Part shown: piece by piece, positions 46,396-51,623 of the stretch | Numbering within the stretch: the stretch's first letter is position 1 | Layout of the letters: each line of letters opens with the position of its first letter | NCBI RefSeq assembly: GCF_020176695.1 | Contig: NZ_JAIWIA010000001.1 | Span: 1-64,000, forward strand | Length of the DNA stretch: 64,000 nucleotides | From: Massilia sp. MS-15 | Lineage (GTDB): Bacteria > Pseudomonadota > Gammaproteobacteria > Burkholderiales > Burkholderiaceae_D | Direction of reading: 5' to 3' | The notes under the pieces: model-generated | What the model was told of the DNA's origin: nothing | Database searches by the model: none | What the model saw: only the letters and a program-made list of their open reading frames with translations | Translations under genes and position numbers: made by a program

Positions 46396-46500
46396 TCCGC
46401 GCGGGCGCCACGTGCGCCCGGCCTGTCCCGGGCGGGGGCCAGCGCGGCTCCCGCCGTTCCGCTTTCCCGGCCCGCGGCCTCCCGCCGCGCCGCGCCTTCC

Positions 46501-46525
46501 TTGTCCCGCTTTCGTCCTGGACAAA
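46501..46525 (+). promoter_or_regulatory. Upstream operator-like dyad of the PYP promoter
   Basis: TTGTCC at 46501-46506 is a half-site, followed by CGCTTTCGTCCTGGACAAA (46507-46525), an imperfect version of the perfect dyad found at 46584-46598. The two dyad centres are 73 bases apart, about seven DNA turns, so a dimeric or tetrameric regulator could contact both from one face and loop out the promoter between them. Confidence 0.6.
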
Positions 46526-46549
46526 TGCCACCACTGGATGCCATGCCGC

Positions 46550-46598
46550 TTGTTGTATTTCCATAGTGCAATGTATATTTCGCTTTGTCCTGGACAAA
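46550..46598 (+). promoter_or_regulatory. PYP operon promoter with downstream dyad operator
   Basis: TTGTTG (46550-46555), an 18-base spacer and TATATT (46574-46579) form a plausible sigma70 promoter in a local AT-rich patch. Immediately downstream, over the expected transcription start, is the perfect dyad TTTGTCC-T-GGACAAA (46584-46598). It is followed by the PYP ribosome-binding site AAAGGGCAGC and ATG at 46631. Repression by a regulator bound at the dyad is inferred; the CarH-like protein of the same operon is the leading candidate. Confidence 0.65.
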
Positions 46599-46630
46599 CA
46601 CCGACAAACGACCATTCACCAAAGGGCAGC

Positions 46631-47017
46631 ATGAGTAACCTGAACATCATCGCATTCGGCAAAGACGACATCGAGAACAAGCTGACGGACATGTCGGCGA
46701 CGCAGATCGACCAGCTCGCCTTTGGCGCCATCCAGCTCGACGCCCAGGGTACCATCCTGCGCTACAACGAGGCGGAAGCCCAGATCACCGGACGCCAGGC
46801 CAGCGCCGTCATCGGCAGCAATTTCTTCCGTGACGTGGCGCCATGCACGAACACCTCGCGCTTCAAGGGCGTGTTCGATGCCGGCGTGCGCACCGGCACC
46901 CTGAATACCATGTTCGAATACGTGTTCGACTACAAGATGACGCCGACCAAGGTGAAGATCCACATGAAGAAGGCGATCAGCGACGGGACCTACTGGATCT
47001 TCGTCAAGCGCCTGTAA
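46631..47017 (+). CDS. pyp: Photoactive yellow protein (blue-light PAS photoreceptor)
   Basis: PAS-fold blue-light receptor that covalently binds p-coumaric acid through a thioester. The 128-residue protein aligns along its whole length with Halorhodospira halophila PYP with an offset of three. Chromophore cysteine is C72 (C69 in PYP) in DVAPCT. The hydrogen-bonding pair is Y45 and E49 (Y42, E46) in [11 protein letters not shown], with T53, R55, Y97 and M103 also conserved. [21 protein letters not shown] is nearly identical to the reference segment split around Y97. It is first in a three-gene unit with its chromophore-activating ligase (4 bases downstream) and a B12-type regulator. Confidence 0.96.
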
Positions 47018-47021
47018 GCCG

Positions 47022-48254
47022 ATGTCGATGCCCCTGCCGCACCCCGCCCCCTGGTGGACCCAGCGTCCCGCGCTGCTGCGCTACATCGCCGACCTGGTGG
47101 CCGGCGAACTGGCCACCCTGCGCCACGATCCATCCATCGAGCCTGGCGCGTGGACCGGCAGCCTGTCGCTGCAGCAGGACCTGGGCCTCGATTCGCTCGA
47201 GCTGCTGCACGTGGCCGGCGTGCTGGCCACGGCGCTGGGCATGCAGCACAGCGGGGTCGAGGACTACCTGCTGGCGCGCCGCAGCCTGGGCGAGTGGGCC
47301 GACCTGGCCGCCACCGCCCTGGCCCACTGGGACCAGGAAATCGTGTTCAGCACCTCGGGCAGCAGCGGCCAGCCGAAGCGCTGCGTCCACGAACTGGCGT
47401 GCCTGGAGCAGGAGGCGGCTGCCCTGGCCTCCCTGTTCCCTAGACGGCGCCGCCTGCTGGTGGCCGTGCCCAGCCACCATATCTACGGCTTCCTGTTTTC
47501 CCATCTGCTGCCGCGCCACCTGGGCCTGGGACCGGACGACGTGCTGAGCGTGCGCGCACGCCTGCCCGGCCAGCTGGCCCGCCACACCCAGCCCGGCGAC
47601 CTGGTGATCGGCCACCCGCTGTTGTGGGAGGCGGCCAGCGCCGCGTGCGCGCCGTTCGCGCCAGACGTGTTCGGGGTCAGCTCGACCGCGCCCTGCCCCG
47701 CTGCGGTGGCCGAGGCGACCGAGGCGGCCGGGCTGGCAGCCCTGTTCCAGGTCTATGGCAGCTCCGAGACGGGCGGCCTGGGCTGGCGCCGTACGGCGCG
47801 CGAAGACTACCGCCTGTTCCCTTACCTGGCGCGCGGCGCCGGCCAGCGCGGCCTGTTGCGCGCCCTGCCGGGCGGCGCCACCATCAGCCTGCAGGCCCAG
47901 GACGCGCTGGACTGGCGCGGCGCGCGCAGTTTTGCCGTGGGCGCGCGCTGCGACGGCGCGCTGCAGGTCGGCGGCGTCAACGTCTTTCCGGAACGGGTGC
48001 GCGAGGTGCTGTGCGCCCATCCCGGCGTGGCAGACGCCGCGGTGCGCCTCATGCGCCCGGACGAAGGCCTGCGCCTGAAGGCCTTCATCGTGCCGCACGC
48101 CGGCCATGGCGAAGCACGCGAGGACTTCGCGCGCGAACTGCGCGCCTGGGTCGATGCGCGCCTGGCGGTGGCCGAGCGTCCCAAGGCCTTCACCTTCGGC
48201 AGCGCGCTGCCGCGCAGCGCCATGGGCAAGGCGGCCGACTGGAGCATCGCATGA
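47022..48254 (+). CDS. p-Coumarate:CoA ligase of the PYP-activation type with carrier-like N-terminus
   Basis: Adenylate-forming enzyme of 410 residues expected to activate p-coumaric acid for loading onto PYP, as in Rhodobacter and Halorhodospira clusters. The ATP-binding loop is TSGSSGQPK at 111-119. YGSSETGG lies at 245-252, GGVNVFPERVREVL at 317-330 and the catalytic lysine K403 in RSAMGK near the end. The enzyme is short for a CoA ligase. Residues 1-95 resemble an acyl-carrier domain, with QQDLGLDSLELL placing S58 as a possible phosphopantetheine site. Coumarate might be passed via the carrier rather than CoA. The stop overlaps the next ATG. Confidence 0.88.
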   Translation: MSMPLPHPAPWWTQRPALLRYIADLVAGELATLRHDPSIEPGAWTGSLSLQQDLGLDSLELLHVAGVLATALGMQHSGVEDYLLARRSLGEWADLAATALAHWDQEIVFSTSGSSGQPKRCVHELACLEQEAAALASLFPRRRRLLVAVPSHHIYGFLFSHLLPRHLGLGPDDVLSVRARLPGQLARHTQPGDLVIGHPLLWEAASAACAPFAPDVFGVSSTAPCPAAVAEATEAAGLAALFQVYGSSETGGLGWRRTAREDYRLFPYLARGAGQRGLLRALPGGATISLQAQDALDWRGARSFAVGARCDGALQVGGVNVFPERVREVLCAHPGVADAAVRLMRPDEGLRLKAFIVPHAGHGEAREDFARELRAWVDARLAVAERPKAFTFGSALPRSAMGKAADWSIA

Positions 48255-49177
48255 CGCAGCCAGGCGCGCCGGCCACGCTGGGCATCGACGCGGTGGAGCG
48301 CGAGACCCGGCTGTCGAAGGACGTGCTGCGCGCCTGGGAAAAGCGCTACGGTTTTCCGCTGCCGGTGCGCGACGCGCTGGGGCAGCGCGCCTATCCGCTC
48401 GAGCAGGTCGAGCGCCTGCGACTGATGAAGCGCCTGCTGGACCAGGGCCTGCGTCCCGGACGCCTGGCCGGCTTGCAGCATGCGCAACTGGCGCAGCTCG
48501 TCCGGCAGGCGCCGCGCGCCGCGGCGGCGTGCGCCGGTACGGAAGCGCAGGCCCTGGTCGAGGCGCTGCTGGCGGGCGTCGGGCGCGACCCGGTCGCCCT
48601 GCGCGACGCCCTGCGCCAGCAGCTGGCGCGCCTGGGCGTGGAGCGCTTCGTGGAACAGGTGGCGGCCCCGCTCACCACGGCCGTGGGTGCGCGCTGGGCG
48701 GAAGGCGGTCTCGACATCTTCGAGGAACACCTGTACACCGAGACCATGGCCGGCATCCTGCGCCACGCGCGGGCTGCCCTGCCCGAGGCCGCCGGTGCGC
48801 CGCGCATCCTTCTCACCAGCCTGCCGGGCGAAGCGCACGGCCTGGGCCTGGGCATGATCGAGATCCTGCTGGCGCTGGACGGCGCCAGCTGCATCGCCCT
48901 CGGTACCGGAACGCCGCCCGCCAGCATCGTGCGCGCGGTCGAGCGCCAGGGCGCCGACATCGTCGCCCTGTCCTTTTCGGCCGCCTACCCGAAGCGCCAG
49001 GTGGGCGCGGCCGTGCTGGGCCTGCGCCGGCTGCTGCCGGAGCCGGTACAGCTGTGGGCGGGCGGGGCCGGCGTGGCCGCGCTGGGCGCCATCGAAGGCG
49101 TGCGCCTGCTGCCAACGCTCGCCAGCGGACGGGCCGCCCTGGTGGCGTGGCGCGCCGGCGGCGGCCAGCCTGGGTAG
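48251..49177 (+). CDS. MerR-family B12-binding regulator of the CarH/LitR photoreceptor type
   Basis: Transcription factor of 308 residues. A MerR winged-helix (about 8-75) includes RLSKDVLRAWEKRYGFP and the QRAYPLEQVERLRLM segment. A helical bundle follows with W149, E159 and H160 (W-x9-EH), then a cobalamin domain with E194-x-H196-xx-G199 (LPGEAHGLG) and GTGTPP. In Thermus CarH the matching residues W131, E141, H142 and H177 hold adenosylcobalamin and sense green/blue light; the spacing here (10, 11, 47) nearly equals that in CarH (10, 11, 46). Its ATG overlaps the ligase stop, so it belongs to the PYP operon. A light-independent MlrA-like role is an alternative. Confidence 0.9.
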   Translation: MTQPGAPATLGIDAVERETRLSKDVLRAWEKRYGFPLPVRDALGQRAYPLEQVERLRLMKRLLDQGLRPGRLAGLQHAQLAQLVRQAPRAAAACAGTEAQALVEALLAGVGRDPVALRDALRQQLARLGVERFVEQVAAPLTTAVGARWAEGGLDIFEEHLYTETMAGILRHARAALPEAAGAPRILLTSLPGEAHGLGLGMIEILLALDGASCIALGTGTPPASIVRAVERQGADIVALSFSAAYPKRQVGAAVLGLRRLLPEPVQLWAGGAGVAALGAIEGVRLLPTLASGRAALVAWRAGGGQPG

Positions 49178-49232
49178 ATCTTCCTGCGGTAGAATGAATT
49201 CGAATACATTACCGCAACGCAAGAGGCCCGAC

Positions 49233-50528: not shown

Positions 50529-51623
50529 ATGCACCCTGTCTACCGATTCTCGTTCACCCTGCTGACCCTCTTCGCGGGCGCCATCGACTGCGCCCAGGCC
50601 GGGCCGCAGTATGTCATGTCCTTGCTCGGGGCCGACGACTTCGTCATTCCCATGGCCATCAACAATCGCGGCCAGGTGGTCGGCACCATGGGCCCGCTGT
50701 TGGGACAGCGGCAGTTCTTCCTGTCGGACGGGGGCGTGGCAAGCACGCTCGACGATGTGCGAGCGGGGACAAACCGGATCGACATCAATGATGCCGGCGT
50801 GATGCTCTACAACCACGCCCTGCACTACACCAATGGGTCCACCGCCGGGCTTCCCATGACGGGATTCGCACTCAACAATCATGCCGACGTGGCTGGCGAA
50901 ATCCACAGGCTGGGTCAGCTGAGCCTGGCGGCAGTCTATCGCCCGAATGGAACGCTGAGCGTGGCAGGCATCGCAGGCCGCTGGAATTCGGGCTATGACA
51001 TCAACGACGACGGCGTGGTGGTCGGCGCCGCCCATGGCATCAACCTGAAAACGGATCCGCCGGGGTTTCCCGCCTTCCGGGCGGCACGCTACGCGAACGG
51101 CCAGGCGCAGATCCTGGAGCCCTACGGGCACGGCTACGGCTTTGCCAACGCGGTGAACAAGGCCGGCTATGCCGTCGGCGTGACGGGTGGGCATGCCGCG
51201 CTATGGAGGCCGGACGGAACCCTGATCGACCTGGGCGCCATCCTGGAACAACGCTATGGTCCCGAGCAGTACAGCATTGCCTACGGGATCAATAGTTTTG
51301 GCGAAGTGGTCGGTTCCTTCGGCGACGCCCAAGGCTTCCTGTACAGCAATGGCGTCATGTACGACCTGGAACCGCTGGTCCTGAACGATGACGGACTTGA
51401 CTACATGGCCTACGGCATCAACGACCGTCACCAGATCATCGCGGCCTCCGCCGTCGGCGATGGCGTCATCCTGAACCTGGCCGGCCCGGCTGTGGCGCAG
51501 CCGGTGCCGGAGCCGGCCAGCCACCTCGTGTTTCCAACATGCCTGGCCGCTCTCTGCTTCCTGAGGCGCAGGAAGACGCGGTGCGCTCCGACCGGCAGGC
51601 TGGCGCCGGTGGCACCCGGCTGA
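50529..51623 (+). CDS. HAF-repeat exported protein with PEP-CTERM sorting signal
   Basis: Secreted protein of 364 residues with a signal peptide (about 1-24). Seven short repeats of the HAF type (x-IN-x-x-G-x-VVG) occur at about 43-52, 84-94, 113-123, 157-166, 208-217, 253-262 and 296-305. The C-terminus has VPEPAS at 326-331, a short hydrophobic stretch and RRRK, the PEP-CTERM/exosortase sorting signal. A further 15 residues after the arginines are unusual and may mark a displaced stop. It is probably processed at the cell surface. Its upstream 147 bases are AT-rich. Confidence 0.85.
   Translation: MHPVYRFSFTLLTLFAGAIDCAQAGPQYVMSLLGADDFVIPMAINNRGQVVGTMGPLLGQRQFFLSDGGVASTLDDVRAGTNRIDINDAGVMLYNHALHYTNGSTAGLPMTGFALNNHADVAGEIHRLGQLSLAAVYRPNGTLSVAGIAGRWNSGYDINDDGVVVGAAHGINLKTDPPGFPAFRAARYANGQAQILEPYGHGYGFANAVNKAGYAVGVTGGHAALWRPDGTLIDLGAILEQRYGPEQYSIAYGINSFGEVVGSFGDAQGFLYSNGVMYDLEPLVLNDDGLDYMAYGINDRHQIIAASAVGDGVILNLAGPAVAQPVPEPASHLVFPTCLAALCFLRRRKTRCAPTGRLAPVAPG

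Follow-up and report, generated by a model that had tools for sequence, protein, structure and literature searches.

The pyp operon and its MerR/B12 regulator

We analyzed a 64,000-nucleotide stretch of DNA from Massilia sp. MS-15 (NZ_JAIWIA010000001.1, positions 1 to 64,000; here, the window), in which a short operon encodes photoactive yellow protein (PYP), a ligase predicted to activate p-coumarate, and a MerR-family regulator with a cobalamin (B12) domain. Most likely, the regulator is a LitR/CarH-like B12 repressor that makes PYP light-inducible and represses itself, because a palindrome, TTTGTCNNNGACAAA, tracks both pyp promoters and homologs of the regulator. We think it likely that the operon is a light-gated photoreceptor module in which the B12 repressor controls pyp, the ligase gene, and its own gene; production of PYP, itself a light sensor, is probably timed by another light sensor.

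Translation of the window confirmed the tight coupling of the three genes that a sequence-only reading had described. On the forward strand, pyp (46631-47017; 128 amino acids) is followed after a gap of 4 bases by the ligase gene (47022-48254; 410 amino acids), the stop of which overlaps the start of the regulator gene (48251-49177; 308 amino acids) in an ATGA. The PYP had been called complete, and so it proved: it scored 190.6 bits against TIGR02373 (curated cutoff, 143.05), and alignment to solved PYPs showed that Tyr42, Glu46, Thr50, Arg52, and Cys69, which we take to be chromophore pocket residues, are retained as residues 45, 49, 53, 55, and 72. For the ligase, assignment as a coumarate-activating enzyme was upheld in part. 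Its adenylate-forming domains exceed the Pfam cutoffs (PF00501, AMP-binding, 30.9 versus 29.9; PF13193, AMP-binding_C, 44.3 versus 24.5) and its gene adjoins pyp, but its TIGR02372 score of 322.3 bits is just under the curated cutoff of 334.7, which a relative (L037) passes with 340.5. We therefore call it only pCL-type.

The regulator contains MerR_1 and B12-binding_2 domains above the Pfam cutoffs. Its best solved relatives, both by sequence (approximately 30% identity) and by the fold of an AlphaFold2 model (mean pLDDT of 89.7), are LitR/CarH proteins of Thermus thermophilus. It shares with class I LitR/CarH the MerR helix-turn-helix, the four-helix B12-binding_2 domain, the Rossmann B12 domain, the Trp, Glu-His, and His positions, and the fold. 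Alignment to the solved relatives identified counterparts of CarH Trp131, Glu141, His142, and His177 (numbering from PMC10442372). The signature of B12 photoreceptors, GxxW, EH, GxxH, and GxxxP (PMC11796333), is found at residues 146-149, 159-160, 193-196, and 218-222 and is complete in the regulators of all eight pyp operons described below. By domains, fold, and signature, the protein belongs to the broad LitR/CarH type and is predicted to work like CarH in outline, with adenosylcobalamin (AdoCbl) and light. The genome also encodes a cobalamin adenosyltransferase.

We sampled 392 genomes of the family and found a PYP over the model cutoff in 18. In the window's genus (g1), which comprises Massilia strains, the order pyp, ligase, regulator is kept in all eight PYP loci found, at different genomic sites; seven of these loci came from the unbiased sample, and one, in genome G397, was found through its regulator. 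The three-gene arrangement is not kept in M. psychrophila, which is Massilia by name and is placed in another genus (g4). The other seven operon regulators are 57 to 70% identical to that of the window, and all eight group in a single clade of a tree of 33 homologs (support, 96/97). The co-occurrence of PYP with MerR/B12 proteins to which the sequence-only reading pointed thus holds for the genus (8/8 loci), but we rejected it as a general rule: in a species-level scan, a MerR/B12 gene was located within 6 kb of pyp at 5 of 80 PYP loci, all in the window's genus.

Candidate operators of pyp and of the regulator family

Two candidate operators, neither assigned to a strand, lie upstream of pyp. 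The proximal one, the palindrome TTTGTCCTGGACAAA (46584-46598), holds the sole exact TTTGTCNNNGACAAA site in the genome, where approximately 0.03 would be expected from base composition. The distal one, TTCGTCCTGGACAAA (46511-46525), has 1 mismatch to the 15-mer TTTGTCCTGGACAAA. No other sites at 0 to 1 mismatch to this 15-mer occur in the 4.5-Mb genome. Three further places, on either strand, match it with 2 mismatches; we gave them no weight because a reversed control pattern also matched three times. Between the operators is a −10-like hexamer, TATATT (46574-46579, forward strand), which follows the pattern TAnAnT in all eight genus loci (columns T75, A76, A78, and T80 are invariant) and stands directly upstream of the proximal operator, which would overlap the transcription start. 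Paired TTTGTCNNNGACAAA palindromes with 0 to 2 mismatches flank this putative promoter before pyp in 8/8 genus loci. The spacing of the pairs is 73, 72, 73, 64, 51, 63, 51, and 110 bases; seven of the eight values deviate from an integral number of helical turns by no more than 0.14 turn, a figure given without comparison with chance. That a B12-type repressor controls its own operon had been proposed from the sequence alone, and the candidate operators, placed around the putative promoter and tracking the regulator family, support that proposal.

In related genera, where the regulator is encoded elsewhere, 9 of 11 pyp loci also have the palindrome upstream of the gene, at 0 to 2 mismatches. 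The link is therefore one of a regulon as well as of an operon. When 18 genomes were searched for exact sites, 30 forward matches were obtained, versus 4 for the reversed pattern; none came from G397 or G055. Sixteen of the 30 are in pyp/lyase cassettes, 5 are upstream of regulator genes, and 2 are upstream of a gene for a large GAF/PAS hybrid sensor kinase that lies downstream of another kinase gene (L146:4350 and L147:4506, a G343/G377 pair). The GAF/PAS kinase domains were scanned in G343 only, and the site recurs at the same place in G377; this kinase is a possible further target of the regulator in these sister species.

We asked whether the palindrome accompanies the regulator family outside pyp operons, using the 30 best of the regulator matches that 148 genomes yielded; 7 of the 30 are in pyp operons and 23 are standalone. 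The palindrome is present within 350 bases upstream of all 23 standalone homologs at 0 to 2 mismatches, of 19 at 0 to 1 mismatch, and of 17 exactly. The 29 control palindromes with permuted arms matched no locus with 0 or 1 mismatch and, on average, 0.21 loci with 2. The neighbors of the standalone genes include FAD (flavin adenine dinucleotide) amine oxidase genes, divergent from or near the regulator in L081, L086, L148, L149, and L151; folE2, similarly placed in L150 and L152; and chemoreceptor genes, divergent in L082 and L083 and downstream in L085. Pseudomonas LitR genes are located near genes for an FAD oxidoreductase, ufaM, phrB, and a folE, and one of the proteins, PmlR2, is a repressor (PMC9758184). 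On account of the sites and neighbors of the standalone homologs, TTTGTCNNNGACAAA is best read as the candidate autoregulatory operator of a LitR/CarH-like family, with pyp in its predicted regulon.

Two side observations concern these homologs. The palindrome is upstream of the regulator in the chemoreceptor loci L082, L083, and L085 (with two mismatches in L085), and light-regulated chemotaxis is possible there. In L087, L089, L090, and L091, the regulator genes adjoin pilT/pilU-like pairs, and the B12/light residues are partly lost in three of these four.

Proposed mechanism and its alternatives

Gene order, coupling, conservation, residues, fold, and the association of the palindrome with the regulator family are directly established; we infer binding of DNA and of AdoCbl, release by light, repression rather than activation, and an output of PYP, as follows. 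In the dark, AdoCbl-loaded regulator would occupy both palindromes flanking the pyp promoter, probably from the same side of the helix, and would repress pyp, the ligase gene, and its own gene. Cobalamin absorbs light from the UV to the green, and its illumination would break the Co-C bond and release the repressor. The released operon would then yield apo-PYP together with the ligase that attaches p-coumarate to it, and the repressor would be remade as well, limiting the response. PYP would then sense blue light and signal onward. An AND circuit of the two photoreceptors, as suggested by the sequence-only reading, is hypothetical, and cotranscription of the three genes is a prediction from their coupling.

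Several observations weigh against this scheme. The sequence-only reading credited the regulator with the residues that make CarH a light sensor, which is correct for the Trp131, Glu141, His142, and His177 positions but not for His132: this position is Ala in the window and Ala, Gln, or Glu across the eight operon regulators, and the residue after the signature Trp is not His in any of the 15 rows of the regulator alignment. T. thermophilus CarH with the H132A substitution is mostly tetrameric after light, although an earlier report of disassembly is cited in the same paper (PMC10442372). Given this behavior and the missing His132, light release may differ or fail. The scores of the regulator against B12-binding (PF02310; 29.2, below the cutoff of 32.1) and the CarH model NF052513 (94.7 bits; cutoff, 400) are low. 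CarH operators are direct repeats (PMC8156234), whereas the candidate operator is palindromic; this difference and the missing His132 set the regulator apart from CarH proper. A strict sigma-70 scan revealed no promoter upstream of pyp, so the −10-like hexamer is putative. As for the palindrome, several of the 23 standalone homologs are close relatives, L153, the 10.7-kb locus of one further homolog in G023, contains no site at 0 to 1 mismatch, the best sites of the more distant homologs in L087 and L089 to L091 have 2 mismatches, and 7 of the 30 exact sites are at other genes, for which the scheme does not account. The PYP genome G071 has neither regulator nor palindrome, and in G055, which does encode the regulator, pyp is not preceded by a site at 0 to 2 mismatches. 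The presence of the regulator family (E value up to 1e-20) in 17/18 PYP genomes versus 131/374 others (7/7 versus 9/49 within the genus and 10/11 versus 122/325 outside it) speaks for the scheme, but these counts ignore shared ancestry and come from a search model that included operon members.

The main rival, which would be the more surprising result, is that PYP is the partner of the regulator: PYP activated by blue light would bind the MerR/B12 protein as an antirepressor and lower its DNA binding, giving one switch with two chromophores. PmSB-LOV, a short blue-light LOV protein, is the antirepressor of PmlR2, a MerR-type LitR protein encoded next to it (PMC9758184), and the missing His132 leaves room for a second trigger. 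PYP, ligase, and regulator also stay together in 8/8 loci, whereas the lyase that can accompany them (described below) is missing in three and decaying in two. However, PmlR2 is thought to be unable to bind B12 (PMC9758184), whereas the window regulator retains its B12 residues; standalone homologs with no pyp neighbor also lack His132, and in related genera pyp and the regulator are unlinked. We consider such a partnership unlikely. A loop of PYP and regulator alone would have no other output, since the only close operators in the window genome are those of the operon itself. In a combined version, AdoCbl photolysis and photoactivated PYP would act on the same repressor, and the carrier-fused ligase, itself controlled by the switch, would set the amount of photoactive PYP; this, too, is doubtful. 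If true, such a two-chromophore switch would, to our knowledge, provide the first transcriptional effector for a single-domain PYP.

The missing His132 and the low B12-binding score would also fit a regulator that senses B12 supply or redox state rather than light, or one that activates, with a metabolic link to PYP. MerR proteins can repress or activate (PMC8156234), and in several related-genus loci the palindrome, as read by eye, is directly upstream of a −35-like box. Yet each of the eight operon regulators has all four parts of the photoreceptor signature, the His132 position is variable among validated light-responsive B12 domains, some of which lack this His (PMC11796333), the proximal site in the genus loci would overlap the expected start, and the neighbors of the standalone homologs resemble known light-induced gene sets. 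This alternative is thus rather improbable. Chance, or passive hitchhiking of the regulator gene beside pyp, could be argued from the confinement of the close linkage to one genus; it is very hard to reconcile with a single regulator clade that is kept in 8/8 loci at more than one genomic site, with candidate operators before pyp both in the genus and in 9/11 related-genus loci.

A B12 repressor that makes PYP light-inducible would differ from known systems in several respects. T. thermophilus CarH has His132 and direct-repeat operators and acts on carotenoid genes, whereas here His132 is absent, the operator is palindromic, and the candidate target is the pyp operon. PmSB-LOV and PmlR2 of Pseudomonas mendocina are likewise a small blue-light photoreceptor and a LitR-family MerR protein encoded together, with folE-type and FAD oxidoreductase neighbors; the present system has PYP with p-coumarate rather than LOV with flavin mononucleotide, retains the B12 residues, and has TTTGTCNNNGACAAA in place of TGTACA-N12-TGTACA as its operator, and contact between PYP and the regulator is hypothetical. 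The pyp-pCL-TAL (tyrosine ammonia-lyase) operon of Halorhodospira halophila (PMC12826048) resembles the genus cassettes in having pyp followed by the ligase gene, and a lyase is present in 5/8 of these cassettes (2 of them decaying); here, a MerR/B12 regulator ends the operon. A partial precedent for combining two photoreceptor types within a predicted pyp operon is provided by Caballeronia sp. SBC2, whose pyp operons include BLUF (PMC12826048); the available part of that paper mentions no B12 regulator for them.

The sequence-only reading knew of no description of the PYP and B12 regulator pairing, and this held in the open-access literature searched, supplementary files aside. Searches for PYP with LitR, or with MerR and B12, returned reviews and unrelated papers only, and PYP with Massilia returned none. 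The main texts of two surveys of PYP neighborhoods (PMC12826048 and PMC9664959) contain no mention of MerR, B12, or cobalamin in the parts available, although the 2022 survey notes transcriptional regulators, without naming them, in the vicinity of clade A PYPs. What is new is a LitR/CarH-like regulon that includes pyp, with the regulator inside the pyp operon in the window's genus, and the candidate operator TTTGTCNNNGACAAA; both the regulator and the PYP are of known kinds. Control of PYP synthesis is little discussed in the PYP literature consulted, and the signal output of single-domain PYPs is an open question (PMC9664959, PMC12826048). Through the B12 regulator and its candidate operators, PYP is linked to a light regulon of a type already known, which makes both the control of its synthesis and its signal output testable in cultured Massilia, and the cassette is a compact natural module that combines two photochemistries, those of cobalamin and p-coumarate.

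The ligase carrier-like domain and the history of the cassette

The first ~105 residues of the ligase (window 47022-47357) form a domain resembling acyl carrier protein (ACP), with Ser58 within a DSL motif. We aligned 97 PYP-linked ligases (14 of them fetched twice), and DS followed by L, I, or F occurs in the N-terminal region of 97/97, representing 83 distinct loci. Pfam scans of 10 N termini detected PP-binding in four and PP-binding_2 in one, all under curated cutoffs (best E value, 0.0018), and no carrier family in the other five. An AlphaFold2 model of residues 1 to 112 had a mean pLDDT of 85.5. Foldseek returned no match with an E value below 0.001 for this model; the leading PDB matches were ACPs or complex I chains (in the latter case, probably the carrier subunit), and target TM-scores ranged from 0.55 to 0.84 among the 50 matches listed. 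The invariant DS(L/I/F) motif and the ACP-like domain suggest a phosphopantetheine arm on PYP ligases, and this built-in carrier may pass p-coumarate to PYP. Nothing relevant turned up in literature searches for an ACP-like domain on PYP ligases.

The three-gene order described for the window is kept throughout the genus, but the operon itself can be longer. An aromatic ammonia-lyase gene is located between ligase and regulator in five of the eight cassettes, full length in G139, G274, and G397. In G343 and G377 (frames at approximately L041 5341-6704 and L048 5373-6662), the lyase lacks the methylidene-imidazolone (MIO) loop and evolves faster: the ratio of nonsynonymous to synonymous substitution rates (dN/dS) for this pair is 0.55, whereas the PYP, ligase, and regulator genes give 0.13 to 0.29 and the lyases of the G139/G274 pair give 0.24, in a comparison for which the lyase gene boundaries of G343 and G397 were set loosely. 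The possibility that the MIO-less lyase is a functional pseudoenzyme was unsupported, as the dN/dS of 0.55 suggests decay. The lyase is absent from the cassettes of the window, G280, and G351, each of which joins ligase to regulator by an ATGA overlap. On a regulator tree with some weak forks, the pattern suggests that the lyase was lost or decayed repeatedly and that the other three genes were retained. The window genome contains, at a contig end, an N-terminal part (~150 codons) of another lyase gene that is 55 to 66% identical to full-length PYP-linked lyases, and p-coumarate supply may therefore be encoded elsewhere in this genome. None of three lyases scanned passed a curated lyase model, so specificity for Tyr is unsupported.

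In the window, G139, G274, and G280, the cassette sits between dapD, on its upstream side, and pilU, on its downstream side. Neither gene was found near the cassette within the stretches searched in G343, G351, and G377, which together with G397 represent the other subclade of operon regulators. The genes dapC, dapD, and pilU are adjacent with no cassette between them in all 11 genus genomes examined, 8 without a PYP over the cutoff and 3 (G343, G351, and G377) with the cassette elsewhere. The cassette was therefore probably inserted at this site, and pilU as an output of PYP was rejected for the same reason. A HAF-repeat protein with a weak PEP-CTERM-type match (window 50529-51623) adjoins pilU; in L035, no match to this protein was found between pilU and the following ArsC-like gene.

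A second PYP-like protein is encoded at G000:C85:224084-224449 (L050:8085-8462). It has ~31% identity and retains Cys69, Glu46, and Tyr42, and the genes beside it resemble a PAS-GGDEF gene that adjoins its relative in L044. This paralog is present in 49 of 56 sampled genomes of the genus, many of which have another pCL gene next to it; the window genome encodes no pCL other than that of the operon. A role of the ligase as a bottleneck for the paralog was weakened by the finding that 9 of the 49 genomes have no ligase match at an E value of 1e-40. In M. psychrophila (L040 and L212; L040, 6114-14020), a lyase-PYP-ligase cluster adjoins a MerR gene with no B12 domain and a photolyase-related gene, and it is a second kind of light-gene neighborhood for PYP.

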